Source: Nitrospirota bacterium (GTDB lineage: Bacteria > Nitrospirota > Thermodesulfovibrionia > Thermodesulfovibrionales > Dissulfurispiraceae). Taken from it: a stretch of DNA of 50,366 nt. How positions within the stretch are numbered: position 1 is the first letter of the stretch; the number at the start of each line of letters is the position of its first letter. A program made the position numbers and the translations under genes. Shown piece by piece: positions 29,215-48,625 of this stretch. Location: positions 1 through 50,366 of the forward strand of contig JAJZPZ010000004.1 in the NCBI GenBank assembly GCA_021847795.1. Reading direction: 5' to 3'. The notes under the pieces were generated by a model. The model was not told the origin of the DNA, did not search any database, and saw only the letters and a list, made by a program, of their open reading frames with translations.

Positions 29215-30213
29215 ATGAGAGCAAAAAATTTCTCTATTATTATTGTTTTTTTCTTGGTTATTCAAAGCGTTTTTCTCTTACCGCCTGCCGGCAGGGCAAT
29301 GGTTATATATAAAGAATGCGAAACCTGCCATGTGCTTTTCCCGGGGTTGACGGGAAAGAATAAGGGGAAAAATAAGGACCTGCGGGAGTCTCTCTGCGTC
29401 AATTGCCACAGCAACGCAAGCGGGGATACGATAAAGCTGTTAGGCAATTTCAGGATACCCGTTGTAAATAATACCCAGGAGCCTGCGAAGCCGCTTGCCG
29501 GCGGCAACTTTTATTATGTTGCCGGTCTGGGTGAAAGAAAAGGGCACAATGTGCATGGCATTTCACCGACAGACATGAAGTTCGGGATGACTCCTCCGGG
29601 GTACGACAGGGCGAATGATCCTTCCTCTATCGGGTATAACCCGGCCAAGCCCCTTACCTGTGCCGGCTCAAACGGCTGCCATGGAGACAGGAACGTGGAG
29701 AATCCCTTTGCCGCGATCATGGGATCTCACCACGCCGAAGATAATCCGATTGACGGAAGCACTACTGCGAAGAGTTTTCGATACCTGAGAATTACTTCCT
29801 CCGTTAAAGGTGTGCTCGGACTTGAAGACGAAGACTGGGGCCAGGATGCCACAGGGCTGAAGCATAATGAGTATTCGTCTACCATTAACAATCTCTGCAT
29901 GAGCTGCCACGGAAACTTCCACTACAAAGATAAAAAAGGCGCATGGTTCCGGCACCCTGTCGGAGTTCCCCTGCCTGTAAAGGGAGAATACGCAGGATAC
30001 TCCTCATACAATCCGGATGCCCCTGTCGGGCGTGCCGACATCTCCGGAGCTACGAGTAGATCGGTAAAGGCAGGAAGAGATGTCGTCCTTTGTATTTCGT
30101 GCCATATGGCCCATGGGAGCCCCTATAATTCATCATTAAGATGGAATTTCGAAGAAGTTTTTTCCGGGAAAGGGGGCCGGGGCGCGTGCTTTATCTGCCA
30201 CACAAAAAAATGA
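29215..30213 (+). CDS. OmcS-like hexaheme cytochrome, paralogue 1
   Basis: The 332-residue exported protein has five CXXCH (CETCH, CVNCH, CMSCH, CISCH, CFICH) plus CX5CH (CAGSNGCH). The landmarks of the family are in order: LAGGNFYYV, KGHNVHGI, the CAG..GCHGD box, IDGSTTAKSFRYLR, SCHGNFH, WFRHPVGV, CISCHMAHGSPY, SLRW and a final CFICH at the C-terminus. The same order of CHTMH, KGHN, RHP and CLSCHRAHAS elements is known from Geobacter OmcS, which polymerises into extracellular wires. The first motif lacks the CHTMHNS tail seen in the other paralogues. The gene is served by P1 and overlaps the next paralogue. Confidence 0.88.
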   Translation: MRAKNFSIIIVFFLVIQSVFLLPPAGRAMVIYKECETCHVLFPGLTGKNKGKNKDLRESLCVNCHSNASGDTIKLLGNFRIPVVNNTQEPAKPLAGGNFYYVAGLGERKGHNVHGISPTDMKFGMTPPGYDRANDPSSIGYNPAKPLTCAGSNGCHGDRNVENPFAAIMGSHHAEDNPIDGSTTAKSFRYLRITSSVKGVLGLEDEDWGQDATGLKHNEYSSTINNLCMSCHGNFHYKDKKGAWFRHPVGVPLPVKGEYAGYSSYNPDAPVGRADISGATSRSVKAGRDVVLCISCHMAHGSPYNSSLRWNFEEVFSGKGGRGACFICHTKK

Positions 30214-31290
30214 GAAATAAAGGCCAGGAAAGAATCCACCATAATACTACAAGGAGCACAGGGAAAACTTCAAAATCCTTTTTAAGCTCTGTGGTTTTGA
30301 TGGGGCTGCTTTTGGTTTGTGCGCTTGCGCTTGTCCGCCCCGGCGCCCCTGATGCAATGGTAGTGGGAACGTGCAAGTCCTGTCATACGCAGGACCTTTC
30401 AAACTGTATTGGCTGCCACGGCCAGAATCCCGGGGGCACTCAAAGTATTATACCGGTGCTGAACGGGGGGGGGGAACCCCCAGGTGCTCCATCACATGGT
30501 TGGCGGAGATCTTGCCGGAGGCAATTTCTATTACGTTGCAGATGGTTATAACCCCGACTATTCCAAAGGGCATAATGTGGGCGGAATCTCTCTGCGGGAG
30601 CTTCCGCCCAAAGACGTACCCCCCGGTTTTATCGGCAGCGTTATCATTCCCGGCGGAACAGGTCCTTTTCAATGGGACCAGACAAAACAGCTTACTTGCG
30701 CGGGCACATGGGGGTGCCATGGAGACAGGACGATAGCAGATCCGCTTCAGTCCATTTCCGGCGCGCATCACACGGATGACAGCGTTATAGACGGAAGTAC
30801 TGTAGGCACAAGTTATCGCTTTCTTTACGGCATAAAAGGTAAAGAGCACAAGACATGGGAGTACCAGGCCACTGCCAACAATCATAATGGATATAAAGGC
30901 GACGGTAACTACAGTTCCATGGAGACCATCAGCTATCTCTGCGGCGAGTGTCACGGCGCCTATCACCTTCATCAGAACCTGGGCGGCAAGACTTCGGATG
31001 TATGGGTCAGGCACCCGGTGGATATTTCTTTCAGTGTGGTGAAGGGCGGCTATACGGGCTCGGAGTATCAGAAATATACAAATTACAGCCTCGATACCCC
31101 TATTGCCTACATAAATCCAACAGGCATGGAAACAACAGTAGATGTGAACAGCATTGTCATGTGCCTCTCCTGCCACAGGGCGCATGCAAGCAATTATCAA
31201 AGTATGCTCAGATGGGACTACTCCAAGGTTTTTGTCGGCAACGGGGCACAAACGGGTTGCCTGACCTGCCATGCTGACAAAGCAAAGTGA
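30210..31290 (+). CDS. OmcS-like hexaheme cytochrome, paralogue 2, frame broken at a G10 tract
   Basis: The start ATG overlaps the previous stop (ATGA). The frame runs through a signal peptide (LSSVVLMGLLLVCALALV) and two motifs (CKSCH, CIGCH), then shifts at ten G (30465-30474). The rest continues one frame over: DLAGGNFYYVADGYN, KGHNVGGI, CX5CH (CAGTWGCH), CGECH, CLSCHRAHASNY, LRWDY and CLTCH. With nine G the frame is restored across LNGGGNPQV, so a single protein of about 359 residues is intended. As given, translation stops after 114 residues. The break is either phase variation or a sequencing error. Confidence 0.85.
30465..30474 (+). repeat. homopolymer of ten G inside a cytochrome gene
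   Basis: The tract lies 255 bases after the start codon. Loss of one G restores the full reading frame. Tracts of this length slip readily in replication, and also in sequencing. Confidence 0.9.
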
Positions 31291-31310
31291 CACCTCTCTG
31301 TGGCATATCC

Positions 31311-31328
31311 TTCACCCAATTGCGTGAA
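31311..31328. promoter_or_regulatory. candidate activator-binding dyad upstream of P2
   Basis: TTCACCCA and TGCGTGAA are near-perfect inverted arms around AT. The TGCGTGAAA half-site begins exactly 210 bases before the -24 element of P2. The same half-site is exactly 210 bases before P3. Confidence 0.45.
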
Positions 31329-31367
31329 ATAACACACCCATATGTGGGGAAATAGTAACGGACCCTG

Positions 31368-31390
31368 CCTGTGTTGCAGAAAAACACAGG
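31368..31390. repeat. perfect 8-bp inverted repeat upstream of P2
   Basis: CCTGTGTT and AACACAGG flank seven bases. No T-run follows in either direction, so it is more likely an enhancer or protein site, 140-160 bases upstream of the sigma-54 promoter, than a terminator. The rest of 31291-31530 holds no gene. Confidence 0.5.
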
Positions 31391-31530
31391 ACCTGAAAGC
31401 AAATCTTTATCAGAACCCGATTTACTGTAAGATGATGTATAAGAAAAGATACTTAATATCAGGAAGTTATAGGGAAACGGACGGGGTGTATCATGCATAT
31501 TGACGAAATCTTTTTTAGTTCTGGTGTTTT

Positions 31531-31546
31531 TGGCATGACGATTGCA
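31531..31546 (+). promoter_or_regulatory. sigma-54 (-24/-12) promoter P2
   Basis: TGGCAT, five bases, TTGCA with correct GG-GC spacing. The start would be near 31558, followed by a ~145-base leader to the ATG at 31703 (or ~88 to 31646). Confidence 0.82.
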
Positions 31547-31702
31547 TAAATAAGTGTCAGTATAAGAGCAGAAAGGGTTGCGAAGCTATCATTAGAATAA
31601 TTTTGAGGAAATCCCAAATAAACGGGAAAAGGAAGGAGGAACAAAATGAAAACAGGAAAGATTCAAAAATGTCACAAAACATTAAAGGGAGGTGAGAAAA
31701 AT

Positions 31703-32800
31703 ATGAGAAAAGCATTTTCAGTAATTCTGGTTGCGTTTTTAGCTATGGTTCTCGTGTATGGCGTATCTACCCGTACGGCTGATGCAAAGGTAAGCGGACA
31801 GTGTGTCAACTGTCATACTATGCATAACAGCCAGGGCGGCGCTGCAATGAGGTTTGATTCCAATGCTACTCCGCTGAACACCTTGCTGAGGGGAGACTGC
31901 GTTAGCTGTCATTCATCCACAGTTGCAAACGAGGTTGTGAAAGCCGGTGGTATCCCTGTTGTTTACAGCACAACTGCATTCCCTGCAGTTCCCCTTGCAG
32001 GCGGTAACTTTTATGGGCTGAACAACGATGCATCAAGGCACAACGTTGTAGGCATAGCTGCTGCTGATGCTGTCCTGACTGCCCCTCCGGGATTCGATTC
32101 GACAACTGTTACCGTGCCTACCGGCTTTGTACAGTCCGGCACAGGATGGGGCATTACGAACTGGGCCGGTAAGGAGGTTACCTGCGCGGGAGCACAGGGT
32201 TGCCATGGTGACCGTTCGGTAGAGAACACCAGTAACGAGGCCGGAGTAAAAGGCGGGCATCACGGGGACGATTCTACGATTGACGGTACAACAACCGTGA
32301 AGAGCTACCGTTTCCTGGCAGGCATCAAGGGCGTTGAGATGAACACAGCGGGCAACCAGTGGGAACAGGCTCCTACGGCAACAAGCCACAACGGATACTA
32401 TGGAGCGGCCGGCAGTAAGAACTCCATCAACTATCTCTGCGGTGAGTGTCATACGAAATTCCATGCAACTGCAAGTGGAGCAAATGCTGCAACTAACGTC
32501 GGCACGGCATCTCCATGGCTCAGGCACCCGACCGATGTTTCTGTCGCGCTTCTTTCCGGGGCTGATTATACAGCCTACAATCCTGCTGTCCCTGTTGCAA
32601 GTGCGCTTCCGAAAACAGGCGCTCTGAATCCTACAACAGAGCCCGGTTTGGTTATGTGTCTGTCATGCCACAGGGCGCACGGAAGCAATCAGTTGGATCT
32701 CCTGAGGTTCGACTATACTGCAGGTACGACACAGGCTGGTTTAGGGACTACGCAGGTTAATGCCACAGGCTGCCTCGTCTGTCATGTTGCTCAGAGGTAA
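31703..32800 (+). CDS. OmcS-like hexaheme cytochrome, paralogue 3
   Basis: The 365-residue precursor has a textbook signal peptide (MRKAFSVILVAFLAMVLVYG, cleavage near ADA-K). It carries [17 protein letters not shown]5CH (CAGAQGCH), CGECH, CLSCHRAHGSN and CLVCH, with LAGGNFYGL, RHNVVGI, SYRFLAGIKG and WLRHPTDV between them. The family is that of wire-forming OmcS, inferred from motif order. Two strong ribosome sites exist: GGGAGGTGA before 31703, and AAGGAGG before an in-frame ATG at 31646 that would add 19 residues (MKTGKIQKCHKTLKGGEKN). I prefer 31703 for its signal peptide. A terminator follows 25 bases after the stop, so it is transcribed alone from P2. Confidence 0.9.
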   Translation: MRKAFSVILVAFLAMVLVYGVSTRTADAKVSGQCVNCHTMHNSQGGAAMRFDSNATPLNTLLRGDCVSCHSSTVANEVVKAGGIPVVYSTTAFPAVPLAGGNFYGLNNDASRHNVVGIAAADAVLTAPPGFDSTTVTVPTGFVQSGTGWGITNWAGKEVTCAGAQGCHGDRSVENTSNEAGVKGGHHGDDSTIDGTTTVKSYRFLAGIKGVEMNTAGNQWEQAPTATSHNGYYGAAGSKNSINYLCGECHTKFHATASGANAATNVGTASPWLRHPTDVSVALLSGADYTAYNPAVPVASALPKTGALNPTTEPGLVMCLSCHRAHGSNQLDLLRFDYTAGTTQAGLGTTQVNATGCLVCHVAQR

Positions 32801-32825
32801 ATTGTAATAACAGGTATTTCAATCA

Positions 32826-32858
32826 AAGGGGAGCTGAGCAATCAGTTCCCCTTTTTTT
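32826..32858 (+). terminator. Rho-independent terminator after cytochrome paralogue 3
   Basis: AAAGGGGAGCTGA pairs with TCAGTTCCCCTTT (one mismatch) around a four-base loop, and seven T follow. It insulates paralogue 3 from P3 downstream. Confidence 0.92.
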
Positions 32859-32985
32859 ATGTTGTCCTGGACCCGCCCTCCCGGTACTCTCAGGCAATTC
32901 CCGGTGAACTTATAAATCCTTGAGACTGCCGCTCCCGATTGCTATGGACCCTGAATCCCCTGAAAAGTTGCTCTGCGTGCGTTTT

Positions 32986-33004
32986 TTAACGCAAACTGCG
33001 TGAA
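32986..33004. promoter_or_regulatory. candidate activator-binding dyad upstream of P3
   Basis: TTAACGCA and TGCGTGAA are inverted arms (7 of 8 matching) around AAC. The TGCGTGAAA half-site (32997-33005) starts 210 bases before P3, the same distance as at P2. The remaining bases to 33206 show no gene. Confidence 0.45.
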
Positions 33005-33206
33005 AAAGCCCACTAATCTTATTTATCAGAAAATTTCCAGCAGTTATGCTTTTTAAATTATTTCAAACCTGAAAAACCCGGGTGGCAGCTGCTTAAATAA
33101 ATATATCAAAAATTATAGAGACTTATGCGCAAGCGGGGTCAGGATAAGGCATTCCCTTATATTGAGAGAAAATAATTAAGGAGTTTATTTACAAGAGCTT
33201 AGGGGA

Positions 33207-33240: not shown

Positions 33241-33385
33241 GAGTTACGCACCTTTCATCATACCGGACCCGACCCGGTATCCTGAAGGCTCGGAAGGCAC
33301 TGGATTCCGGGTCAGAGGATCTGCAGGAATGACGGGCATTGCAACTCTTTGAATTTCATAATAATGGTTCAAAAGTGCGTAACTT
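33241..33385. mobile_element. small non-coding element with inverted ends (MITE-like)
   Basis: AGTTACGCAC (33242-33251) and GTGCGTAACT (33375-33384) are perfect 10-bp inverted ends, and the next bases also pair partly. The interior has a different, GC-rich character (CCGGACCCGACCCGG... TGGATTCCGGGTC) seen in dispersed bacterial repeats. It carries no gene. AAAATATT occurs just outside both ends and may be a remnant target duplication. It sits between P3 and its gene; without it the leader would be about as short as those of P1 and P4. Confidence 0.6.
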
Positions 33386-33410
33386 ATTCTATAAAATATT
33401 GGGGTTAACA

Positions 33411-34610
33411 ATGAAAAAAATTGTCTTGGTAATATTGATAGCACTTTCCCTTATACCTTTTATCAGAGGTAATCCTGATGCAAAGATAACCGGTCCCTGC
33501 GTCAACTGCCATACCATGCACGACAGCCAGGGCAACACAGGCATGGCTACCTACGGAGCAGACGGAAAACCCTGGAAAAGCATAGGCCCGAATCCGATGC
33601 TGGTTCGCGGCGGTTGCATGGGGTGCCACGGCATAGGAACTGCAAAGATCGTGAACATAGGCGGAAGCGACGTCCCTCAGGTTTATCATAGCGATGCCTC
33701 GGGCGACCTCGCAGGCGGCAACTTCGCTTATATTCTGGGAGCAAAAGGCTCAGGCGCATCCGACCGCAAAGGACACAATATAGATGACCTCGGGAAGCCT
33801 GATGCTGTAATGGCAGGCATTATACCCGGCGGTTTTTTAGGCTCTTTCCACACTAAGACTTCAGGCGGTATTCTTGACAGCACCAATGGCGATGGAGCTA
33901 CTATCCCAACTCTTACATGTGCAGGGGAGAATGGCTGCCATGGAGTAAGGTCGCCTGCAGGCTTTGGCGGCTCGGGTTTGGTGAATTTGGCGGCTATGAA
34001 GGGCACTCATCACCAGAATGCGAGCGGGCAATTGGACGCAGCGGATAAGGTCTCAAACAGTTATAGATTCCTGACAGGCGTGAAGGGATTTGAGAATGAT
34101 GGGACCTATAAATGGCAGAACAAGGATGCGAGCAATCACAACGAATATTTCGGGACAACAACCCCTCCCAAATACGGTTGTGCCGGCGGCACCGTCAACT
34201 GCCATGGGGCAAACGGCGTCCAAAGCCAGAACAATTCGATAAGCGGTTTCTGCGGCACATGCCACGGAAATTTCCACACACTCAGCGGCGGGACAGGCGG
34301 CAGTGCGGCAGGTATCGGCAGCACGACAAATTCGCCTTTCCAGCGGCACCCTACTGATGTGGTCCTCCCAAACAAAACCGAATATGCAGCGTACACATCT
34401 TTCAGCGTGCAGGCGCCGGTGGCGAGGCAGGCGGTGCCCGCGGCTATGAGCGCAGCAGTAGCTCCGGGCAGTGATGTTGTCATGTGCTTGTCCTGCCATA
34501 TGGCTCATGCCTCCGATTATCCCTCGATGCTGAGATGGGACTACACTGCAATGGTGGCAGGCGGAGGCGGAAGCGGCGGATGCTTCACCTGTCATACCAC
34601 AAAGAACTGA
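33411..34610 (+). CDS. OmcS-like hexaheme cytochrome, paralogue 4
   Basis: The 399-residue precursor starts [17 protein letters not shown] with GGGG at seven bases. It carries [17 protein letters not shown]5CH (CAGENGCH), [17 protein letters not shown] and CFTCH. The family landmarks are [35 protein letters not shown] and LRWDY. Compared with the other paralogues it has an extra Gly-rich insert containing CAGGTVNCH (CX6CH), just before the fourth heme; whether it binds heme is doubtful. It ends at a strong terminator and begins downstream of P3 and the inserted element. Confidence 0.9.
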
Positions 34611-34685
34611 AGAATAAGAGACCAAACCACTTTATTTTTTTACCGCTGATTTGGATATAAGGGTTGCTGAAGTGGCGGGCAGGGT

Positions 34686-34721
34686 AAAAAAGGCCACTCC
34701 TTTCGGAGGATGGCCTTTTTT
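34686..34721 (+). terminator. Rho-independent terminator after cytochrome paralogue 4
   Basis: AAAAAAGGCCA (34686-34696) pairs with TGGCCTTTTTT (34711-34721), with CTCC/GGAGG-type pairing inside. The arms make it effective on both strands. It separates the cytochrome genes from the propeller/barrel operon. Confidence 0.92.
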
Positions 34722-34822
34722 ATTTCCGGATTTTCTGATCATGCAGCAGGACATCTTTTTTAAAGGGCGGCCCCTGTTTTTCATAGCATCGTTTTTTTTA
34801 TGGGGAATAGCGAAAAAATGCA

Positions 34823-34852
34823 TTGACACATCCATGACAATCTCAATAAAAT
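34823..34852 (+). promoter_or_regulatory. sigma-70 promoter of the propeller-barrel operon
   Basis: TTGACA (34823-34828), 18 bases and TAAAAT (34847-34852). A start near 34859 excludes the longest possible N-terminus of the next gene. No -24/-12 motif is present here, so this operon seems not to share the sigma-54 control. Confidence 0.65.
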
Positions 34853-34905
34853 TAACCACGATGAATAATAGAGCTATTAGTATGGGAGCCTCAAAAGCGA
34901 GTACA

Positions 34906-35877
34906 ATGTGGAAAGTCTCCGCAAGGAGAGGGTGGACATCTTTTATCCTCTGCACGATCTGCATGGCCTTCTGCTTTGCCTCCTGCACTGCCGGCGTAGC
35001 CGGCGCCGAGTCGGAAGGCGCGGGAACAGGTCCGCCTTATATAGAAAGCATTCATTACGATGATGAGGGAAACGTTATCCGGTTCCCCTCTTTTGTCATG
35101 GCCGAGCCGGTCATGAATGAAATCTATGTTATCGACAGCATGAACAGGATAATCGTCTATACGTCCGACCTCTTTCCCCTTCTGACGATCACCGGAAGGA
35201 ACGGCATCGAGAACCCCACGGGAGTAGCTGTTGACAAGGACGGCAATGTCTATGTTACGCAATCGTCAACCAAGGAAGACGCCAGGAGCAGGATCGTAAT
35301 CCTCAATGCCTGTCTCAAAAAAACACGCGAAATCTTTTTTCAAGGCTTTGAAGGCGCAAGTTCCTTTGTCGCTTTCCGGATTGCCCTGGATAAAAAAGGC
35401 CTTATGTATGTAGCCGGGCTCAGCTACCCGGGTGTGATTGTCCTCGACAACCAGGGCCGCTTCCTGAAAGTGCTGGCGCCGATGGAAGGCGACAGGACAG
35501 CGAGAATAAGCGGGGTCACCATTGATAAAGGGGGCCGGATATATCTGCTCAGCGAGGACGAGAGCCGCATATATGTTTACGATGAAAACTATAAATTCCT
35601 CTTTAAGTTCGGAGAAAAGGGCGGGAGTTCGGGAAAGCTGAGCCGGCCAAAGGGGATTGCCGTGGATGACGCCAACGGGAAAATTTATGTGTCTGATTAC
35701 ATGAGGCACTCGGTCAATATTTACGACAAAGAGGGCAAATACCTCTCTGAATTCGGCGGCATGGGCTGGGGAGAGGGCTGGTTTCAGCATCCGATGGACA
35801 TAGCCGTAGATTCAAACGGCAGGATACTCGTTGCGGATACTTTTAACGACAGGATACAGCTGTTCAAATCCATGTGA
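34906..35877 (+). CDS. NHL-repeat six-bladed beta-propeller lipoprotein
   Basis: The ~323-residue product has a lipoprotein signal ending FASC. It then has NHL-type blades (GVAVDKDGNVYVTQS, GVTIDKGGRIYLLSEDESRIYVY cut into blades, GIAVDDANGKIYVSDYMRH, DIAVDSNGRILVADTFNDRIQ). NHL proteins occur next to extracellular cytochromes such as omcS in Geobacter, where a structural or assembly role is suspected. The start at 34906 (MWKVSARRGW) gives a normal n-region; in-frame ATGs at 34861 and 34882 are alternatives and no ribosome site is decisive. It overlaps or abuts the next gene closely. Confidence 0.85.
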   Translation: MWKVSARRGWTSFILCTICMAFCFASCTAGVAGAESEGAGTGPPYIESIHYDDEGNVIRFPSFVMAEPVMNEIYVIDSMNRIIVYTSDLFPLLTITGRNGIENPTGVAVDKDGNVYVTQSSTKEDARSRIVILNACLKKTREIFFQGFEGASSFVAFRIALDKKGLMYVAGLSYPGVIVLDNQGRFLKVLAPMEGDRTARISGVTIDKGGRIYLLSEDESRIYVYDENYKFLFKFGEKGGSSGKLSRPKGIAVDDANGKIYVSDYMRHSVNIYDKEGKYLSEFGGMGWGEGWFQHPMDIAVDSNGRILVADTFNDRIQLFKSM

Positions 35878-35897
35878 GCGGACAGGAGTTGAAGGAT

Positions 35898-37478
35898 ATG
35901 AAAAAAAGCGTAAAATTTGCAAGGATCTTGTTCCCCATCTGTCTTTTCCTGATCGCAGGGCTTTCAGGATGCGCCACAACCGAGGAGCAGGGTGAACCCC
36001 CATCCCAGGAGCCCACGCACGGACAGGTCACCCTTTTTATGAACGGGCCTGAACGGGCCTCTCTGGACATAACTTTCGAGATTATCGCGGTAAACGTAAT
36101 TGCCGAGGACGGGACCGTGCGGGAGATCATGAATACACCGCTGAAGGTCAATTCCCTCGCTATGATCGGTCACCAGATATCCCTGGGCGAGAGGACCCTG
36201 CCGGAGGGTACCTATACGAAGGTCCAGTTCATCGTAAAAGGGGCATCGGTCAGGAAAAAGGAAAAGCCCGCGACCCTTGCTCTCCCCCCTGAAGGGATTA
36301 ATGTGGATGCACGGTTCACCATCAGCAGGAGGGTCAATACCACGATCTTTTTCAGCTGGAGCCCCGATGCCTCGGTTGTGGACGGTTACCTGTTCAGGCC
36401 GGCCTTTTTGGTGAAAAGGCAGATGCCTGAGTTGAACACCCTGATGGTTTATGTGACAAACGAAGGGTCGGACAATGTTTCGGTCATTAACAGGCAGACT
36501 GATGAGGTGGTTGCAACGATCATGGTGGGAAGAAGGCCCAGGGGTATAGCAGTGGGAACGAAGAAGGACGGGCTGAAGGTCTATGTGGCGAATTCCGGGT
36601 CCAACAGCATCTCCGTAATAGACCCGACAACGAATAAGGTAGAGACCGAAATCCCCATCAGATTCGGATGGTCTCCCGAGAGTATTGCCGTGGGAAAGAC
36701 AGGTCCCGATAAAGAGCTGATCTTTGTGGCGAATTACAGCTCGAACACCGTGTCGGTGGTCGACGGGTCGACCTATCAGGAGATCGATAAGATCAGCACA
36801 GGAAACGGGCCTATAGCAGTTGCCGCGGACCCTCCTGCCGATACCCTTCTGACTTCGAGGACCCTTAGCCAGGATAGTGTGAATATCCTGAAGAATTACC
36901 GTGAGAAATTCATCAATGTCTATGTTGCAAACCGGAATTCAAAGGATGTTACCGTGGCGAGGATGGATGCTGCAACGGGCAGGAGCCTGGAAACCTTCAA
37001 TGTGGGGGTCGAATGGAGCCCTATGTCAGTCAATGTTGATTACCAGCGTGGCAAGCTTTATGTGACAAACTATGATTCGGACAAACTCTCGGTTATCGAC
37101 ATCCTGCGCGTTGTGAGGGGAAATAAAACCGACCTGGTCGGCACAATCAACAATATCGGGACCGCGGGGATCGGGACAACTACGGATTCAACGTTTGACA
37201 GGCTTTATTTTTTAAGGGAGGTCCCGGGAGAGGTCCTGGTTGTAAGGCCTTTTTCAGAGAGCGGCGACGTTGTCAAATCGCAGATAACTCCGATTGTCGA
37301 CGTTATCGGTGTCGGGGGGGACCCAAGAGCGCTGCTCATGGATCCGGAAGCGCGGAAGCTGTATATAGTCAACAGGGGGGCGAATACGGTCTCGGTGATG
37401 GATAAAACTACACGAAAGCTTGAGCAGGTCGTGCCTGTCGGGAAAAGGCCTTACGGGATAGCGGTGTTTCCACGGTGA
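35898..37478 (+). CDS. YncE/YVTN-type beta-propeller lipoprotein with N-terminal DUF4382-like domain
   Basis: The 526-residue precursor has a lipoprotein signal with lipobox LSGC. Residues 25-150 form a beta-rich domain (GQVTLFMNGPERASLDITF...LPEGTYTKVQFIV) resembling DUF4382. About six YVTN blades follow (MVYVTNEGSDNVSVINRQT, VYVANSGSNSISVIDPTT, LYVTNYDSDKLSVID, LYIVNRGANTVSVMDKTT). Such propellers sit on the outer membrane as binding platforms. The ATG at 35898 has GAAGGA five bases upstream. It is in one operon with the NHL protein and the barrel; G7 runs occur within it. Confidence 0.87.
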   Translation: MKKSVKFARILFPICLFLIAGLSGCATTEEQGEPPSQEPTHGQVTLFMNGPERASLDITFEIIAVNVIAEDGTVREIMNTPLKVNSLAMIGHQISLGERTLPEGTYTKVQFIVKGASVRKKEKPATLALPPEGINVDARFTISRRVNTTIFFSWSPDASVVDGYLFRPAFLVKRQMPELNTLMVYVTNEGSDNVSVINRQTDEVVATIMVGRRPRGIAVGTKKDGLKVYVANSGSNSISVIDPTTNKVETEIPIRFGWSPESIAVGKTGPDKELIFVANYSSNTVSVVDGSTYQEIDKISTGNGPIAVAADPPADTLLTSRTLSQDSVNILKNYREKFINVYVANRNSKDVTVARMDAATGRSLETFNVGVEWSPMSVNVDYQRGKLYVTNYDSDKLSVIDILRVVRGNKTDLVGTINNIGTAGIGTTTDSTFDRLYFLREVPGEVLVVRPFSESGDVVKSQITPIVDVIGVGGDPRALLMDPEARKLYIVNRGANTVSVMDKTTRKLEQVVPVGKRPYGIAVFPR

Positions 37479-39915: not shown

Positions 39916-40530
39916 ATGCTTGATTTCATGAACAGCACAGAGCATCGGAGCAACCGGGGGCATGCAGGGGCGTGTATAGCGCTGTTTCTTGTGTTGAGCT
40001 GCCTGCTCTTTTCCCTGGACGGATGCGGGGTGCGGCCCAAGTACTACACGCGGCCCGATGCCGGCGCTGGTAAGATCAGGAAGATCGCCGTACTGCCTAT
40101 CGAGAATTTTACAAGCGACGGGCTGGCTGCGGAAAGGATAAGGAAGCTCGTCATTGCGGAGATCCTGACAAAGGGAGTCGATGTCGTCGAGCCGGGCGAA
40201 GTGTCGAGCGTACTGATTGACATGAAAATCAAGTCCCTCAACTCCCTTTCCATAAAGGACATCCGGGAAATGTCCAAAACACTGGGGGTGGAAGTCCTGA
40301 TGCTGGGCTCTGTCGAAGCATACGGCATAAGCAACGGGATATCAACAACCTATCCTGAGGTTTCTATCCACCTGACCCTGCTTGACGGGGCGACCGGTAA
40401 TGTAATATGGTCTGCATGGAACACCTCGGAGGGGCCGAGTTTTTGGACCAGGCACTTCGGCTCGGAAGGGCCGACACTGAGCGAGACTGCAAGAAAGGTG
40501 GTACGGAATGCCCTTAATACGCTGCTCTGA
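39916..40530 (+). CDS. CsgG/LpoB-like lipoprotein, single domain (A)
   Basis: The 204-residue precursor has a lipoprotein signal (ALFLVLSCLLFSLDGC) and one alpha/beta domain. The domain reads KIAVLPIENFTSDG, then a partner strand in EILTKGVDVVEPGEV, LGVEVLMLGSVEAYG, and VSIHLTLLDGATGNVIWSA. That pattern is shared by CsgG, LpoB, FlgO and TolB N-terminal domains. Such proteins form oligomers at the outer membrane; CsgG itself forms the curli secretion pore, but its membrane hairpins are not obvious here. It starts at 39916 or 39928; neither has a good ribosome site. It is the first of three related genes in a row. Confidence 0.75.
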   Translation: MLDFMNSTEHRSNRGHAGACIALFLVLSCLLFSLDGCGVRPKYYTRPDAGAGKIRKIAVLPIENFTSDGLAAERIRKLVIAEILTKGVDVVEPGEVSSVLIDMKIKSLNSLSIKDIREMSKTLGVEVLMLGSVEAYGISNGISTTYPEVSIHLTLLDGATGNVIWSAWNTSEGPSFWTRHFGSEGPTLSETARKVVRNALNTLL

Positions 40531-40552
40531 GATAAACAACGGAACAAAAAAT

Positions 40553-41152
40553 ATGAGGAGAAAAACAGTGGGCCTGCTGAAGAGTTTCTTATTAGGTTGT
40601 ATGCTTTGCATGATGGTGTTTGTTCCCGGGTGCGGGGGGGGGAGCACTGCAACCTACCATATCCGCCAGGATGTCGATTTCGGCTTTATCAAAAGGATCG
40701 CCGTGCTTCCCATGGATAACCTGACGGGTGACAGGTATGCAGGGGACGTGGTGAGACAGGTGGTCATCAGCGAACTGCTGGCTTCAGGCCTGGCTGACGT
40801 TGTCGTGCCCGGAGAGGTGGTCGCCGCGCTTGATAAAATGGGACCCAAATCCATATCAGCGCTGACTACGGAACAGCTGAAGGCCCTGGGCAATACCCTG
40901 AAAGTGCAGGCCTTTGTCCTCGGATCAGTCGAAAAATTCGGAGAAGTGAGGGTTGGGAACGTGTCGGCGCCGGAAATAAGCATTACGCTTATGCTGGCTG
41001 ACGCAGGTTCCGGAAGCATCATCTGGTCGGCCACAAGGACAACCGGGGGGGCGGGTTTTATGGCGCGGCATTTCGGCGCCAGGACCGACACTTTGAGCGA
41101 AAGCGTGCTCAAGATCGTGAGAGCCACGCTCCAGACGCTGACAAAGTATTAA
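40553..41152 (+). CDS. CsgG/LpoB-like lipoprotein, single domain (B)
   Basis: This 199-residue paralogue of the preceding protein has lipobox VPGC followed at once by GGGST, encoded by a nine-G tract. The domain repeats the same landmarks (RIAVLPMDNLTGDRY, VVVPGEVVAALDKMG, LKVQAFVLGSVEKFG, ISITLMLADAGSGSIIW) and the shared ending GFMARHFGARTDTLSESVLKIVR, cut here as a pattern. It therefore arose by duplication. The start at 40553 (MRRKTVGLL) is chosen for the signal; an ATG at 40508 overlaps the previous gene. Confidence 0.75.
   Translation: MRRKTVGLLKSFLLGCMLCMMVFVPGCGGGSTATYHIRQDVDFGFIKRIAVLPMDNLTGDRYAGDVVRQVVISELLASGLADVVVPGEVVAALDKMGPKSISALTTEQLKALGNTLKVQAFVLGSVEKFGEVRVGNVSAPEISITLMLADAGSGSIIWSATRTTGGAGFMARHFGARTDTLSESVLKIVRATLQTLTKY
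40634..40642 (+). repeat. homopolymer of nine G directly after the lipobox cysteine codon
   Basis: The tract encodes Gly-Gly-Gly right after the lipidated Cys and keeps the frame open as given. Gain or loss of one G would end translation of the mature protein early. Confidence 0.85.
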
Positions 41153-41162
41153 CGGGAACGCC

Positions 41163-42206
41163 GTGGGAAGAAAGGATTGCGGACCCATCGTTTTTTTGCT
41201 CTGCCTGCTGCTTTTTTCCACCGGCCCGTCTTATGCAGCGACATCCCCTGCTGAAAAAAACCACGGCGCCGGCAAAATCGCTTTTTTCCCCTTCGAAAAC
41301 CTCAGTGAAAACAAAAATGCCCTCGATAAGATTCTTCCCGTACTGAAAGGACAGCTCGAAAAGAGGGGAATCGAAATAGCGGACGACGGCAGCGTGGACG
41401 CCTTCCTGCTCAGGGAAAGGTTCAGGTTTTCCGGATACATCTCAAAAGACCTGGCCGTGAAGCTCGGGAAGGAACTGCAGGTGAGCGCCGTTGTGCTGGG
41501 CGCCGTCACTTCCTTTTCCGAAAAGGACAACCCGGAGGCCGGGCTGTCGCTCCGCCTGGTCAGCACTGCTGACGGCTCTCTCTTATGGGCGAACAACGCT
41601 TCAGCAACAGGGGATGATTTTACCGGCATCCTGGGGCTGGGCAGGATCGGGACCCTGGACAAATTGGTCCCTGTCGTCATTAAAAGGCTGCTTGCCTCTT
41701 TCAATATGAATCCGCCGCGTAAGGAAGTGGAATCAACGTATAAAATTGCGGTGATGCCTTTTCAGAACAGGAGCAAGGCGAAAAACGCAGGCGCAGCGAT
41801 TACCTATATGTTTATCGGGGAGCTCTTCAAAGACAGGCGGTACATACCCTTTGAGTACGGAGATATCAGGAAAGCGATTGTCGAAAAGCGCATAAGGGAA
41901 AAAGGAGAGTTGGATTACAAGAACATGGATTTCCTCTCAGGGGACCTGGACGCTGATGGTTTTTTGGTAGGAACGGTCGAGGTCTTTTCTGAGAAGAATG
42001 ACGCTTCCTCTCCGCCTGAAGTCGCCCTGAACATCAGGCTTATAGATGCCCGGAAAAAAAGAATTTTATGGTATGATAGTTATCACTTGAACGGAGACGA
42101 TGATATATTTATTCTCGATTTCGGCAAGCTGCGTTCCGTAGATGAGGTGGCCCGGAAGGTGATCTCAAAATTAATAAAGAGGATGGGGAAAGCCAAATGG
42201 TTTTGA
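41163..42206 (+). CDS. CsgG/LpoB-like protein with two tandem domains
   Basis: The 347-residue precursor starts at GTG with a signal peptide (VFLLCLLLFSTGPSYAA, no lipobox). It holds two copies of the domain found singly in the two genes upstream. Copy 1 is about residues 35-170 (KIAFFPFENLSENKN, LQVSAVVLGAVTSF, LSLRLVSTADGSLLWA). Copy 2 is about 190-340 (KIAVMPFQNRSKAKN, DADGFLVGTVEVF, LNIRLIDARKKRILWYDSY). A soluble, double-domain relative beside two lipoprotein relatives suggests a hetero-oligomer at the outer membrane. The gene end overlaps the foldase start by ten bases. Confidence 0.75.
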   Translation: MGRKDCGPIVFLLCLLLFSTGPSYAATSPAEKNHGAGKIAFFPFENLSENKNALDKILPVLKGQLEKRGIEIADDGSVDAFLLRERFRFSGYISKDLAVKLGKELQVSAVVLGAVTSFSEKDNPEAGLSLRLVSTADGSLLWANNASATGDDFTGILGLGRIGTLDKLVPVVIKRLLASFNMNPPRKEVESTYKIAVMPFQNRSKAKNAGAAITYMFIGELFKDRRYIPFEYGDIRKAIVEKRIREKGELDYKNMDFLSGDLDADGFLVGTVEVFSEKNDASSPPEVALNIRLIDARKKRILWYDSYHLNGDDDIFILDFGKLRSVDEVARKVISKLIKRMGKAKWF

Positions 42207-43867
42207 GAAATATTAAAACATTAAGCATCAGGATTTTTTTCACGACCTCCTGCCTGCTGTTGCTTGCCGGCGCAGGCGGCTGCATAACGAGCCATAAGGC
42301 GAGGGTGTTTGCCGTCGTCAATGGAGAAAATATTTCCGAAGACGACCTGGCGTACGCGCTGAATATAGAGCACCGCAAGGAGAATCTCGCGCAAACGGGA
42401 AAGCTGGACCTCGATGAGTACCTGAAAAAACTGATAAACGACAGATTGTTTATCCAGGAGTCGCGCCGCATGGATCTTGAACATACCCCTGAAGTGCAGG
42501 AAGCTCTTAAGGCTTATATCGTAAGGGAGTCGGTGACGCGGCTTTATGATGATGAGATCAGGAAAAAAGTATCTGTAACCGACGACGACATCCTGAAGGA
42601 GTACAGGAAGGATTACGAGAAGTACGAGATCGGCTTTATAGAATTGAGTTCAGAGGACGCTGCGAAAAAAGCGCTGGAGCAGTTAAAGAAGGGCGGGAAT
42701 TTCAAGGAACTGGCTCAAAAGATCTCCGAACACAAATCAAAGAAGGACGGGGGAGAGCTTACGCTTCCCCGGAGGGCCCTGTCTCCCCAGTTGCTGGAGG
42801 TTGTCTCGAAGCTCAAGCCGTCGGAGTTCAGCGATGTTGTCGGCATGAATAAGAAGTATTATCTTATCCGGCTCATCAGCAGGAAGGAAGCTCCTGCAGA
42901 GGACCTCGGCAAGGTAAGAGACGGCATAAAAAGGAACATTACCAAGCTCAGGGAAAAGGAGAGGGGTGACGAGTACCTCAAGGAACTCCGCAAGGCCGCG
43001 CCTGTAAAGATCAACAAGGACCTCCTCGCATCCGTAAAGATCGACGGGGACAAGAAAGAGATGGAGAAGTGGGCAAAGGACAAAAACGTCGTCGCCGGGG
43101 TATATGATTACGTGCTGACGGTCTCCGACGTAGTGGCGGCGGCAGGGCAGGAAAATCACGGGGCGGTCCCGGACAAGAAGCCTGATTCCGGGAAAATAAA
43201 GGAAGAGATCGTAAACTCCTGGATCGATTTCAAGGTCGTCGATCATGAGGCGCTGAGGCGCCGTTACGACGAGCAGCCCGACCTCAGGGAGATGATAAAT
43301 AATTACAGGGACCAATTGCTCAAGAGGACTTTCTTTAAAAAGGTGATAGCTCCCGAAATCGTCATCACGGATAAAATTCTCAAGGACTATTACGCCGGCC
43401 ATAAGAAAGACTACCTTAAGCCCACGTTGTACAGAATCCAGCAGATCACCGTGAAGACGAAAGAGGAGGCCGAGGATGTGGTGAACAGCCTCAGGAACGG
43501 GGCTGATTTTGCATGGCTGGCGAAGACGAAGTCAATCGACTCCGTGGCAGACAATGGGGGAGATGCCGGGTGGTTTGCAAAGGAAGGCTTGCCGGAAAAC
43601 GTGCGTGAAATCATCGTGAAGCTCAAGGATGGAGAGACAAGCCCCGCCCTGGAAGTCGATTCCCAGTACAGAATATTGCAACTCGTGACAAGGTCTGCGG
43701 AACAGGTGGAGGATTTTGATACTGTTAAGGACGTGGTCACAAAGGCTTATTTCGATTCACAGGTGAAGGACCTGTATGATAAATATATCGAGCAACTGAA
43801 GCAGGGTTCCAAGATAAAGATCATGGAAGACGCGGTCAGGGAGTTTGAACGGAAGTTTAAAAAGTGA
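42197..43867 (+). CDS. SurA/PrsA-like peptidyl-prolyl isomerase lipoprotein
   Basis: The 556-residue precursor has lipobox AGGC, a SurA-type N-terminal helical chaperone domain (VFAVVNGENISEDDLAYAL, YLKKLINDRLFIQES) and two parvulin-like domains. These centre on LAQKISEHKSKKDGGELTLP (residues ~175-200) and LAKTKSIDSVADNGGDAGWF (~440-460). The first lacks several parvulin active-site features and may be structural. It would fold or escort exported proteins across the periplasm: the barrel, the CsgG-like proteins or the cytochromes. A GGGGA site precedes the ATG, and it is coupled to the double-domain gene upstream. Confidence 0.88.
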   Translation: MVLRNIKTLSIRIFFTTSCLLLLAGAGGCITSHKARVFAVVNGENISEDDLAYALNIEHRKENLAQTGKLDLDEYLKKLINDRLFIQESRRMDLEHTPEVQEALKAYIVRESVTRLYDDEIRKKVSVTDDDILKEYRKDYEKYEIGFIELSSEDAAKKALEQLKKGGNFKELAQKISEHKSKKDGGELTLPRRALSPQLLEVVSKLKPSEFSDVVGMNKKYYLIRLISRKEAPAEDLGKVRDGIKRNITKLREKERGDEYLKELRKAAPVKINKDLLASVKIDGDKKEMEKWAKDKNVVAGVYDYVLTVSDVVAAAGQENHGAVPDKKPDSGKIKEEIVNSWIDFKVVDHEALRRRYDEQPDLREMINNYRDQLLKRTFFKKVIAPEIVITDKILKDYYAGHKKDYLKPTLYRIQQITVKTKEEAEDVVNSLRNGADFAWLAKTKSIDSVADNGGDAGWFAKEGLPENVREIIVKLKDGETSPALEVDSQYRILQLVTRSAEQVEDFDTVKDVVTKAYFDSQVKDLYDKYIEQLKQGSKIKIMEDAVREFERKFKK

Positions 43868-43873
43868 GATCAC

Positions 43874-43919: not shown

Positions 43920-45911
43920 ATGAGATATATTACGATTTTGAAAAACAGTAAACGTCCCCTGAAGAAAAGCTGCGCTGTTCTCTTTTTGCTTTTTATCATC
44001 GGAGTGCTTTCCGCATGCGTCACCGACGATACAGTGGTGAGGCAAGGCGGATTTACCCCGAAGCCCTGTATTGATTGCCATAAGGAAAAGCAGGCGGAGT
44101 TCCGGAAAAAGTTCGTGCATGCGCCGGTGGGCAAGCAGGAGTGCGAAGCCTGCCACATCAGGCACGGAAAACTTGCCGTGAAATCCTTTAAGGAAAGGGA
44201 TGAAGACAAGCTGTGCTACCTGTGCCATACCCAGATGTCTGCGAAAATGGAGAAGACGTCCCATGTGCATACTGCGCTGAAGCAGGGCAAATGCATACCA
44301 TGCCACAGCCCGCACGCTTCCGACAATAAGGCGCTCCTGAAAAAGACAGGGAACGACCTGTGCTACACCTGCCATGACCAGGCCACCTTTACGCGCGCTA
44401 CCAAACACAAGCCCCTCATGGACGGATGTCTCACCTGCCATGCGGCTCACGGTTCCCCTTATAAATTCAGCCTTGTAAAAGAGGAGGTCGAACTCTGCAA
44501 GACCTGCCACAATTTCGGTGACGGCGCTTTCAAGCAGGCCCACAGGAATTATCCCGTGCAGAACGGCAAGTGTATGGGATGTCATACGGCGCACAGCTCG
44601 ACGAATGGCAAACTGCTGAGGGAATCCGTCCATGAACCCTTGGCAAAGGGCAAGTGCGAATCGTGCCATAACAAACCGACTGACGCGAATCCCTTTGGCG
44701 TTGCGGCTGACGGCGCAAAGCTCTGCTATACCTGCCACGCCAAAGAGGAAAAGAGTTACATGGCGGCATACAGGCACCGCCCGGTGGAAGAGGGGAAATG
44801 CCTGAGCTGTCACAGTCCCCATGCTACGGACTACCCGAAAGTTACTCTTATGGGTAAGAACGACCTCTGCATAAGTTGTCATGAAAAGAAGGCCGAGGCC
44901 CTGAAAATGAGCAGCATGCACGCCCCGATAAAAGAGAAAGGATGCATTGCCTGCCATAACCCCCATGCGTCGGAGAACAAGTTTTTTTTGCGTGTGCCGG
45001 AAAAACAGATATGCCTTACCTGCCATTCCGATATGGAAAAAGACATGAAAGAGAAATACGGGCATCAGCCGTTTGTGAATGCGGAATGCACGAAGTGTCA
45101 TGATCCGCATGGCAGCAATAACCCGAAAATGACCATAACTTCCATGGGCAGCCTTTGCTACACCTGCCATAAGAAGGAGGAGAAGGAGTTTCTTAAGACA
45201 TATGTCCATACTCCGGTGAACAACAGGCAATGCGGCTTATGTCATTCTCCCCATTCCTCGAATTACAAAGGGCTGTTGAAGAGCCCGGCCGAACAGCTTT
45301 GCGCGGATTGCCACAAATCAATGCTCCAGCAGACCGATATGAAAGCGGTGCATCCTCCTTTCAGGGAGAGGGCATGCGATACCTGCCATAATCCTCATGC
45401 AAGCGACTATATCGGAGTTACCAACGCTCCGACCCGTGAGCTTTGCTATAAGTGCCATAAAAATATGGAAAGCAGTGTGAACTCGAGCAATATTAAACAT
45501 ACCCCGGTCGAAGAGGGAAAATGCACCGTCTGCCACAGCCCGCACATGGCGAAGATTGAGAAGCTCCTTTTGAGCCGTCCCAAAGAACTCTGCCTTAACT
45601 GCCATGAGAAAATCGTCACTACTACTGCACGGAAGGGGCATATCGATATGGACAAGGGTGATTGTACAAGCTGCCATCTTTCCCACTCTTCCGAATCGAA
45701 GGGCCTTCTCAATGACAGTGATCCGGCGCTCTGTCTCAAATGCCATGCGGCAGATACGGAGAGGCTGCTGAAGAGCCACGGCGAGCCCGTTGCAAAAATC
45801 GGGCATTGCGGCGCCTGCCATGTGCCTCATGTTACCGAAAAGCCGGGTCTTCTGAAAAGTGTTACCCACGATCCTTTTGCAACCGGGGACTGCAAGGTCT
45901 GCCATGAGTAA
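43920..45911 (+). CDS. 26-heme c-type cytochrome lipoprotein
   Basis: The 663-residue precursor has a lipoprotein signal (FLLFIIGVLSAC, lipobox LSAC) and 26 CXXCH motifs, one per ~25 residues. Almost all occur in the doubled pattern, where every second motif is followed by xxH (CIPCHSPH, CIACHNPH, CGLCHSPH). The last motif, CKVCHE, ends the protein. Spacer segments such as FVHAPVGKQEC and YVHTPVNNRQC recur, showing repeated duplication of a two-heme unit. Anchored to a membrane, it could carry electrons across the periplasm or sit in the barrel. Its stop codon lies inside the start of the next cytochrome gene. Confidence 0.92.
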   Translation: MRYITILKNSKRPLKKSCAVLFLLFIIGVLSACVTDDTVVRQGGFTPKPCIDCHKEKQAEFRKKFVHAPVGKQECEACHIRHGKLAVKSFKERDEDKLCYLCHTQMSAKMEKTSHVHTALKQGKCIPCHSPHASDNKALLKKTGNDLCYTCHDQATFTRATKHKPLMDGCLTCHAAHGSPYKFSLVKEEVELCKTCHNFGDGAFKQAHRNYPVQNGKCMGCHTAHSSTNGKLLRESVHEPLAKGKCESCHNKPTDANPFGVAADGAKLCYTCHAKEEKSYMAAYRHRPVEEGKCLSCHSPHATDYPKVTLMGKNDLCISCHEKKAEALKMSSMHAPIKEKGCIACHNPHASENKFFLRVPEKQICLTCHSDMEKDMKEKYGHQPFVNAECTKCHDPHGSNNPKMTITSMGSLCYTCHKKEEKEFLKTYVHTPVNNRQCGLCHSPHSSNYKGLLKSPAEQLCADCHKSMLQQTDMKAVHPPFRERACDTCHNPHASDYIGVTNAPTRELCYKCHKNMESSVNSSNIKHTPVEEGKCTVCHSPHMAKIEKLLLSRPKELCLNCHEKIVTTTARKGHIDMDKGDCTSCHLSHSSESKGLLNDSDPALCLKCHAADTERLLKSHGEPVAKIGHCGACHVPHVTEKPGLLKSVTHDPFATGDCKVCHE

Positions 45912-47211
45912 GCCGGTATACATATCCGCCCGCGCCGGACAGCACGACAACCGGAAAGCGCACAAAGCAGGGTTTATGCTGTCCCTGGCGGTAATCATCG
46001 TATTCGCGTTTGCAGCCTTCTCCCATGAGACCGTCTTTGCCGGTGTAAAGGCTCAACTGTCCGATATTTGCGTGAAATGCCACCCGAATCTGAAGGACGA
46101 GATGGCGCAGAAGGATGTCCACTTTCCCTTCAAGCAGGGCAAATGCGGCGCCTGCCATGATATGCATGTAAGCAACTACAAGGGCCTTGTCAGGGATGCG
46201 ATCATCCCGCTTTGCCTGAGCTGCCATGAAGACATCAAAACCGCCATGAAGAAGAGCTACGTGCATGGCGCGCTTAAAAAAGGAGTCTGCACCGACTGCC
46301 ATTATGCCCACAGCAGCCCGAACAGGCGCCTCCTGGTCAAGCCGGAGAAGGACCTCTGCTGGACCTGCCACGAGAACATGAAGGAGCAGCTGAAACAAAA
46401 CCATGTCCATCAACCTTTCAAGGGCGGGGAATGCTCATCCTGTCATAACCCCCACGGCTCTTCCGAAAGGGGGCATCTGGCTGCCGCCCCGGTCAAGGTG
46501 TGCAAGAGCTGCCATGGAGCCCGGTGCAATGTGAACGGGGTTTCGATTTCCTCCTTTACAAAAGATATGGACTGTACAACATGCCACGCCGGGCACAGCT
46601 CGGGCGCCAAGGGCCTCCTCGGACCGAACGGCCATTCGGCTTTTTTAAGCAAAAATTGTGACCAGTGCCATAATCCCATCACATCCGGGAAGGCGATAAC
46701 GACAAAACTCAGCGGAGAAAAGCTCTGCTTCAGCTGCCATAAGTACGACCCCTCGAAATACAGGGACAACGATGTCCACAGAAGCAAGGAAAAGAACGCC
46801 TGCACCATGTGCCATAGCTATCACGCATCTAAAACGAATAAGATGACGGTAAACGAGACAAAACTCTGCATCACATGTCATGAGAGCACCGAAAAGAAGA
46901 TGGTTTCCATGGAAAAGACACTGAAGAACATAAAATGTGTGCCTATCAGGGACAGGAAATGCTTTGAATGCCATATGCCGATGCATTCCAGCCGGCCGCT
47001 TTATCTGCGGGCTGACATGATCCAAACATGTGCACGGTGCCATGAGACACAGCATAAAATCACGCATCCGCTTGGGGCAGGCACTGTTGACCCGCGGAAC
47101 GGCAAGCCGATCACCTGCCTTTCATGCCATAGTATGCATGACGCCCCTGCTGAATTTATGCTGACTTTTGACCGGAAACGCCAGCTCTGCATACAATGCC
47201 ATAATAAATAA
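45904..47211 (+). CDS. 16-heme c-type cytochrome
   Basis: The 435-residue precursor starts at an ATG overlapping the previous stop by eight bases. A membrane helix (FMLSLAVIIVFAFAAFS) with cleavage near VFA-G is followed by 16 CXXCH motifs in doubled pattern (CGACHDMH, CTDCHYAH, CSSCHNPH), ending CIQCHNK. A longer linker around CHGARCNVNGVSISSFTKD separates two clusters. The coupling suggests equimolar production with the 26-heme lipoprotein, as for a two-part conduit. A later ATG (45976) is possible but would leave no n-region. Confidence 0.9.
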   Translation: MSKPVYISARAGQHDNRKAHKAGFMLSLAVIIVFAFAAFSHETVFAGVKAQLSDICVKCHPNLKDEMAQKDVHFPFKQGKCGACHDMHVSNYKGLVRDAIIPLCLSCHEDIKTAMKKSYVHGALKKGVCTDCHYAHSSPNRRLLVKPEKDLCWTCHENMKEQLKQNHVHQPFKGGECSSCHNPHGSSERGHLAAAPVKVCKSCHGARCNVNGVSISSFTKDMDCTTCHAGHSSGAKGLLGPNGHSAFLSKNCDQCHNPITSGKAITTKLSGEKLCFSCHKYDPSKYRDNDVHRSKEKNACTMCHSYHASKTNKMTVNETKLCITCHESTEKKMVSMEKTLKNIKCVPIRDRKCFECHMPMHSSRPLYLRADMIQTCARCHETQHKITHPLGAGTVDPRNGKPITCLSCHSMHDAPAEFMLTFDRKRQLCIQCHNK

Positions 47212-47522
47212 ATCCCCGGCTGTTTTCGGACTGGAGAGAATTAAGCGCCAGGAGGATTGTAATGAAAACCTTAACAACGTTTTTTTTAGTGCGTTATTTC
47301 GCGCAGAAAATAAATGATGAAGTGTTTTCACTTAGTATCCCCGGTCTTCCCGACCCGACTACAGGATGTTCTGATCGTGTTTTTCCCCTGTTTGCATGCT
47401 TTTACATATCAATTATTGGGTTTTATGGGGTGGCGGGAAAGGACGGAAAGTGCGCAACGGTTTAATTTTGTTGCTTTTTACCCATATATGAGTTAATAGT
47501 TTTATGTTGTAACCTGTGTGCT
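47212..47522. other. intergenic stretch before P4; possible short open frame and weak hairpin
   Basis: A 67-codon frame (47262-47465) has an excellent ribosome site (AGGAGG, six bases upstream) and starts MKTLTTFFLV, but it lacks any family signature and reads like drifted sequence. GCAAC (47454-47458) and GTTGC (47470-47474) form a short hairpin followed by five T, a weak terminator or a protein site about 50 bases before P4. Confidence 0.3.
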
Positions 47523-47538
47523 TGGCATAATTATTGCA
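47523..47538 (+). promoter_or_regulatory. sigma-54 (-24/-12) promoter P4
   Basis: TGGCAT, five bases, TTGCA with exact spacing, identical in both boxes to P1 and P2. Transcription would begin near 47550, about 41 bases before the cytochrome ATG at 47591. Confidence 0.82.
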
Positions 47539-47590
47539 AGTTTCTTGAGATAATGGTAATAAGTAATGGCCTGAGAAGAAAGTATAACGT

Positions 47591-48625
47591 ATGAAATGTA
47601 AAACATATAAAGTAATTGTCCTTGCCGCATTGTTTGCCCTGGCGCTTATGACGGAAGCACAGGCCAATGTCACCGGGGATTGCGTCAACTGCCATACCAT
47701 GCATAATAGCCAGAATGGCTCGGCCATGGCAACGGATGACAACGGTGTTCCTACCAATACTCCTTATAATGGACTTCTCAAGTACAGCTGTTTGGGTTGT
47801 CACACAGCGACAAATGCGACAACCTGGAAGGACCCGGTCACGAATGCGCCTATTGTGTACAACTCTGTTGCCCCGACCTATAACAGCGCCAAAGGCCTGG
47901 CCGGAGGGAATTTTTACTATGTGAAGAGTGTCGATCAGGATTTGGGGCATAATGTGCTGGGAGTAACGACTGCTGATGCGACACTGGGAAACACTCCTCC
48001 AGGGGGCTCAGCCCTGGGAGGGCAGATATCCTGTGCAGGGACTAACGGGTGTCACGGTCACAATGGACGCCAGAGCGGTGATACGGCACAGGCTAATCAA
48101 ATTACAGCTATGAAAGGCGCGCATCATGGGAAAGCGGCTCCTCCATTAACAGGAAGTCTTACAGATATCTCGAAGAATTACAGATTCCTGCTGGGGATAG
48201 CAGGTAAGGAAGACGCCGACTGGGAGCAGGAAACAACGACCAATCACAACGATTATAAAGGCGCTACAAGTTTTAGCGACACAACCAGTATGAGTTTCCT
48301 CTGCGGCGAATGCCATGGGAATTTCCACAGCACTTCAGGTGTCGGAAGCGCAAGCCCATGGGTAAGGCATCCGACCGATATCCTGCTGCCGCAGGGCGCC
48401 ACTGAATACAACGCATATAATCCGACTACAACGTATAATAATACGGCCCCCGTGGCGTATACGGACCCGCAGAATCCCTCACGAGGGACTGCCGTAGTCA
48501 TGTGCCTTTCATGCCATAGGGCGCATGCATCGCCGTACTATAAGGCGATAAGATGGGACTACAAAAGCGCGACCCTTGCAACAGCGATTGCGGGATGCAA
48601 TGTCTGCCATACGAGCAAGAATTAA
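47591..48625 (+). CDS. OmcS-like hexaheme cytochrome, paralogue 5
   Basis: The 344-residue precursor has a signal peptide (VIVLAALFALALMTEAQA) and [17 protein letters not shown]5CH (CAGTNGCH), CGECH, CLSCHRAHASPY and CNVCH. LAGGNFYYV, GHNVLGV, NYRFLLGIAG, WVRHPTDI and IRWDY lie between them. It is closest by eye to paralogues 3 and 4, although 13 kb away, and has its own sigma-54 promoter. It therefore belongs to the same regulon as the 29-34 kb cluster. The ribosome site is weak (AGAAGAAAG). Another cytochrome follows after 58 bases. Confidence 0.9.
   Translation: MKCKTYKVIVLAALFALALMTEAQANVTGDCVNCHTMHNSQNGSAMATDDNGVPTNTPYNGLLKYSCLGCHTATNATTWKDPVTNAPIVYNSVAPTYNSAKGLAGGNFYYVKSVDQDLGHNVLGVTTADATLGNTPPGGSALGGQISCAGTNGCHGHNGRQSGDTAQANQITAMKGAHHGKAAPPLTGSLTDISKNYRFLLGIAGKEDADWEQETTTNHNDYKGATSFSDTTSMSFLCGECHGNFHSTSGVGSASPWVRHPTDILLPQGATEYNAYNPTTTYNNTAPVAYTDPQNPSRGTAVVMCLSCHRAHASPYYKAIRWDYKSATLATAIAGCNVCHTSKN

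Follow-up and report, generated by a model that had tools for sequence, protein, structure and literature searches.

The window analysed here, a stretch of 50,366 nucleotides that makes up one contig of the 3.54 Mb draft genome of a Nitrospirota bacterium, carries on its forward strand five genes for multiheme cytochromes related to OmcS of Geobacter sulfurreducens. We designate them g1 (29215..30213), g2 (30210..31290), g3 (31646(31703)..32800), g4 (33339..34610, with its likely start at ATG 33411) and g5 (47591..48625). Reading all five genes bore out the central point of the preliminary description, namely that each carries a CAGxxGCHG box (CX5CH) as the third element of an OmcS-like motif order. 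The genes g1, g3, g4 and g5 are open frames with the order CxxCH, CxxCH, CX5CH, CxxCH, CxxCH, CxxCH, the last of these forming the C-terminal end; the box reads CAGSNGCH in g1, CAGTWGCH in g2, CAGAQGCH in g3 and CAGTNGCH in g5. Searches of the five proteins against Pfam and NCBIfam returned nothing beyond weak matches to doubled-CXXCH and general cytochrome models, and PHROGs gave no match for the cytochromes. Six more loci of the family lie elsewhere in the genome (two on contig C37 and one each on C3, C103, C109 and C163), and the family in this genome is therefore larger than five.

The five genes are less uniform than first described. The CHTMHNS first motif ascribed to all of them, and with it the TMH histidine, is present in g3, g4 and g5 (as TMHNS or TMHDS) but absent from g1 (CETCHVLFPG) and g2 (CKSCHTQDLSN). 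Other shared strings had been idealised: the KGHN element is SRHN in g3 and LGHN in g5, g1 has FRYL, RHPVG and CISCHMAHGS, and only g2 and g4 have LRWDY in its exact form. Nor is there one six-motif architecture common to all five, since g4 bears a seventh motif, CAGGTVNCH (CX6CH), and is therefore potentially heptaheme. The gene g2 is not a single open frame: from its start codon, ATG 30210, which overlaps the stop of g1, it runs to a G10 tract (30465-30474) where the frame shifts, and the remainder occupies the open reading frame 30484-31290. This frame change may represent an assembly error, a pseudogene or a phase-variable tract. The G10 tract is intact in the same-genus relative G001, and another OmcS-family paralogue (contig C163:6541-7624, locus L113) is seemingly split across two reading frames.

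A single-sequence phmmer search of the PDB with g5 gave no match, and only a profile reached OmcS. When a 120-sequence family profile was compared with the whole PDB, OmcS was the top match (E 4.1e-26, 95.4 bits) and the next match scored 23.7 bits, while 500 shuffles of OmcS with the CxxCH residues held fixed reached at most 27.4 bits. True OmcS orthologues occur in the same order (the protein of genome G007 scores 447 bits against 6ef8), and the family core model finds this orthologue at 5e-25. An AlphaFold2 model of g5, the protein on which the fold comparison was made, was built from a 120-sequence alignment with a predicted local distance difference test score (pLDDT) of 85.7 and a predicted template modelling score of 0.85. 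OmcS was the only good PDB match of this model, both by Foldseek (E 2.5e-7, prob 1.00) and by VIA-align (Z 16.8 over 258 residues at 3.8 Å, with OmcE next at 4.5). A fold unrelated to OmcS was looked for and did not emerge, in agreement with the OmcS-like fold anticipated in the preliminary description. The OmcS family is characterised by six CX2CH motifs (PMC6584659); the present proteins have five CX2CH and one CX5CH, with an additional CX6CH in g4, and hence constitute a variant branch and not OmcS proper.

When 396 genomes of the phylum Nitrospirota were searched at the protein level, 37 of them yielded relatives (E < 1e-20), and 130 full-length relatives from the fetched loci were aligned together with OmcS. 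Group A comprises proteins having six motifs with CX5CH (n = 51, and 15 more without the TMH histidine), group C those with CX5CH and a further CX2-6CH after NHN (n = 26, g4 included), and group B those with seven motifs, in which a CX2-6CH and then a CxxCH stand ahead of the HH pair (n = 30); an OmcS-type group has CX2CHDPHG (n = 9). The tree was strongly structured by motif group. Both cysteines and the histidine of CX5CH were invariant in all 90 group A and C relatives bearing it, which places the box far from chance, and its two loop glycines and the next glycine were kept in 89 of the 90. The surrounding L, T, G, G, G and R were also strongly kept, giving the consensus L-T-C-A-G-x-x-G-C-H-G-x-R, and 61 of the 66 group A proteins had no cysteine outside the six motifs. 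The search was extended to 395 genomes of another phylum, to which a metagenome-assembled genome labelled Desulfobacterales belongs; strong matches (E < 1e-80) were obtained in 33 genomes, and CX5CH was present in 30 of the 41 proteins read. The branch is therefore wide, with CX5CH in at least 120 relatives belonging to two phyla. Group B carries a CX2-6CH and a CX2CH in the CX5CH region, so that on either alignment this is a heme-site region; which of the two is the counterpart of CX5CH is ambiguous by distance, and we therefore claim no direction of spacing change inside group B and dropped the attempt to pin the site to one of them. No paper describing CX5CH with heme was found in the open literature searched, a scope outside which subscription papers fall; within that literature the branch is previously unremarked and the heme-motif spacing is new.

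The genes between g4 and g5, all on the forward strand, were assigned from their domains, predicted structures and heme counts. They encode an NHL beta-propeller (34651..35877; Pfam, syntenic), a YVTN/YncE-type beta-propeller that is a probable lipoprotein (35874..37478), an outer-membrane beta-barrel (37584..39890), three lipoprotein-like proteins weakly resembling CsgG, GNA1162 and DUF4136 (39916..42206), a SurA/PpiC-type peptidyl-prolyl isomerase that is probably also a lipoprotein (42197..43867), a 26-heme cytochrome lipoprotein with 26 CxxCH (43920..45911) and a 16-heme cytochrome (45859..47211). The same nine-gene order (NHL, YVTN, barrel, LpA, LpB, LpC, isomerase, 26-heme, 16-heme) was found in relatives, where OmcS-type genes precede the block and usually one follows it, and most of the block also stands beside OmcS-proper genes at loci L115 and L116. 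In Geobacter, maturation and secretion of OmcS have been linked to the GSU2500-GSU2493 block, whose GSU2495 product has 26 hemes (PMC12977616); the 26-heme protein of the window has the size and heme count of GSU2495. The barrel gave no family match in a Pfam-type domain search. Its AlphaFold2 model (pLDDT 86.5) consists of nearly all long strands, and outer-membrane barrels ranked top in Foldseek, MtrB (6r2q_B) having the highest TM-score among the 50 matches listed. Together with its 26- and 16-heme partners, the barrel has the composition of an OetABI/Mtr-type outer-membrane conduit, making it a candidate porin with an OetI/MtrB-like role. A CsgG-like secretion role is possible for the three lipoprotein-like genes. 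Considering the profile match, the fold match and the recurring gene block, we conclude that the five cytochromes represent a genuine branch within the OmcS system.

Upstream of the cytochromes, also on the forward strand, lie genes for a sensor histidine kinase whose sensor part contains one CxxCH (26054..27574; Pfam HisKA, HAMP and HATPase_c; CxxCH count) and a sigma-54-dependent response regulator (27657..29057; Pfam), which adjoins the cytochrome operon in relatives too, being 68-72% identical beside the block at loci L092, L103, L104 and L108. This pair (26054-29057) may regulate the operon in response to redox state. Further upstream, the region 21900-26057 encodes 13-heme and 8-heme cytochromes with TPR and thioredoxin-like genes, homologues of which are also upstream at L108. 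After g5, a large doubled-CXXCH multiheme reading frame (48770-50366) runs off the contig end; ResB and CcsA genes come after its homologue in genome G172, and its homologue elsewhere in the genome of the window (contig C39) has a ResB gene nearby.

We consider it probable that these cytochromes form a CX5CH branch of the OmcS family that binds heme at CX5CH, whose TMH-type members polymerise and whose export depends on the conserved block. The histidine ligands bear on the question of polymerisation. OmcS has 12 of them, one of which (for heme 505) is supplied by the neighbouring subunit (PMC6584659). Six non-motif histidines are common to the nine OmcS-type rows of the alignment (TMH, GHN, DPH, DIH/FH, RHP and RAH). 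We take the TMH histidine of the first motif to be His16, the inter-subunit ligand of heme 5 in OmcS, and the 2019 OmcS structure paper reportedly gives His16 as such a ligand. It is kept in 50/51 proteins of group A, 26/26 of group C and 29/30 of group B. This retention, as well as the position of the genes in an arrangement linked to OmcS secretion, argues against the possibility that the proteins share the OmcS fold but act as soluble or surface-bound carriers and build no long wires. We regard such carriers as a somewhat unlikely alternative, with which the missing presumed inter-subunit histidine of g1 and g2 would agree.

The g1 protein belongs to a clade in which this histidine has been lost. 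The 15 orthologues of this clade (support 100) have CHxL[YF]PG replacing CHTMHNS, stand next to a g2-type gene at the loci whose surroundings were read, and retain the other conserved histidines, apart from a change of FH to tyrosine in 3/15. This pattern suggests that g1 is a filament cap or adaptor since, if the identity of the histidine is right, a subunit lacking it could end a filament and not extend it. The preliminary description of a new branch of filament subunits thus holds with regard to a large and real branch with an altered heme-3 site, but not as five equivalent subunits, given that g1 and g2 lack the first-motif histidine, g2 is frame-broken and g4 has seven motifs.

In the mechanism that we favour, an ancestor would have switched its heme-3 site from CX2CH to the invariant hairpin that carries the consensus. 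Both cysteines of CX5CH would bind heme 3, as the invariance of the motif and its homologous position suggest, and the following histidine would be the proximal ligand, so that the hemes of each subunit would follow the OmcS order and still number six, or seven in the g4 type. The CX5CH proteins retain five of the six OmcS non-motif histidines, and the three new ones that are invariant in them (an HH pair and NHN) make a substitute distal ligand available. The proteins with the CHTMHNS histidine, g3, g4 and g5, would most likely assemble head to tail in the manner of OmcS, with this histidine filling the open ligand position of heme 5 in the following subunit, whereas g1 would receive the inter-subunit ligand without supplying one and could serve as a cap, anchor or adaptor. 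The isomerase, beta-propellers and lipoproteins would act in maturation and secretion, and the barrel with the 26-heme and 16-heme cytochromes would form the outer-membrane conduit through which electrons may flow.

Several observations weigh against this proposal. The CX5CH loop in the g5 model, which was built without heme, is predicted to fold into a tight beta-hairpin, with strands at 126-128 and 132-134, unlike the short helix of most other motifs, and such a loop would suit a disulfide also. The alignment with OmcS sets the CX5CH histidine on the OmcS DPH histidine and not on a CXXCH histidine, and several Geobacter OmcS homologues are not known as wire formers (PMC12977616). The hairpin and the alignment are what would be expected if the CX5C pair were a disulfide and the next histidine a distal ligand like that of DPH, leaving a pentaheme protein with a gap at heme 3. 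This is the main competing explanation for the box, and we judge it improbable. Group B keeps a C..CH of variable spacing at this place, plain CX2CH included, which would be unexpected of a disulfide; invariant non-motif histidines are more numerous in the family than in OmcS, not fewer (eight vs six); and without heme 3 the stack on which the usefulness of OmcS depends would be interrupted. The idea that CX5CH is common to these cysteine-rich proteins by mere coincidence, or that errors in the assembly produced it, as the homopolymer frame change in one of the five genes might hint, has a negligible chance of being right and was already refuted by the family survey, with the box invariant in 90 proteins of many genomes and found in 30 more in another phylum, and the tree divided along motif groups.

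Covalent attachment of heme 3 at CX5CH would raise the question of the lyase. MccA-type CX15CH and NrfA CXXCK sites, which are likewise non-standard covalent heme motifs, need dedicated lyases (PMC3601427, PMC10663686). No dedicated heme lyase gene was found within the window, and ResB genes are on other contigs, at four places in the genome. Three draft genomes with CX5CH proteins (G040, G204 and G365) hold one ResB and one neighbouring CcsA, and no CcmF, and for this reason a dedicated lyase does not seem to be needed; the idea of one was set aside despite the ResB-CcsA pair that follows the cytochrome cluster in G172. As far as these draft genomes indicate, an ordinary CcsBA lyase probably accepts CX5CH and would attach the heme.

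Compared to OmcS (PDB 6EF8, 6NEF), the CX5CH branch has the same motif order, fold, five of six non-motif histidines (TMH, GHN, FH, RHP and RAH) and a neighbourhood with a 26-heme cytochrome, barrel, isomerase and propellers, but differs in having CX5CHG at heme 3 in place of one of six CX2CH, no DPH histidine, the three additional invariant histidines, a chain about 80 residues shorter and, in some members, a seventh motif. The OetABI-type porin-cytochrome cassette, with its OmcS-like, OmcX and hexaheme Apc2a cytochromes, also places a barrel and large cytochromes beside OmcS-like ones; it is described in Desulfobacterota, and the parts of that account consulted mention no unusual heme motif (PMC10553843). 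OmcZ, too, is a filament cytochrome in which a single heme motif has a long loop (heme 1, CX14CH, with a 14-residue loop; PMC9473688), but its fold and heme stack are unrelated and the long loop belongs to heme 1, not heme 3, and lies at the subunit interface.

In its fullest form, the model would describe OmcS-type nanowires of two phyla in which one heme is held by a CX5CH hairpin, attached by the ordinary CcsBA lyase, and which are built from several paralogues including a dedicated cap, the CHxL[YF]PG clade, that ends or anchors the filament. We put this complete version forward only tentatively and think it rather doubtful that every part will hold. If true, covalent heme attachment would gain a new spacing that requires no special lyase, OmcS-type wires would be common in Nitrospirota, where CXXCH searches would have miscounted the hemes, and g1 would offer a candidate for the terminal or anchoring part of a cytochrome filament.
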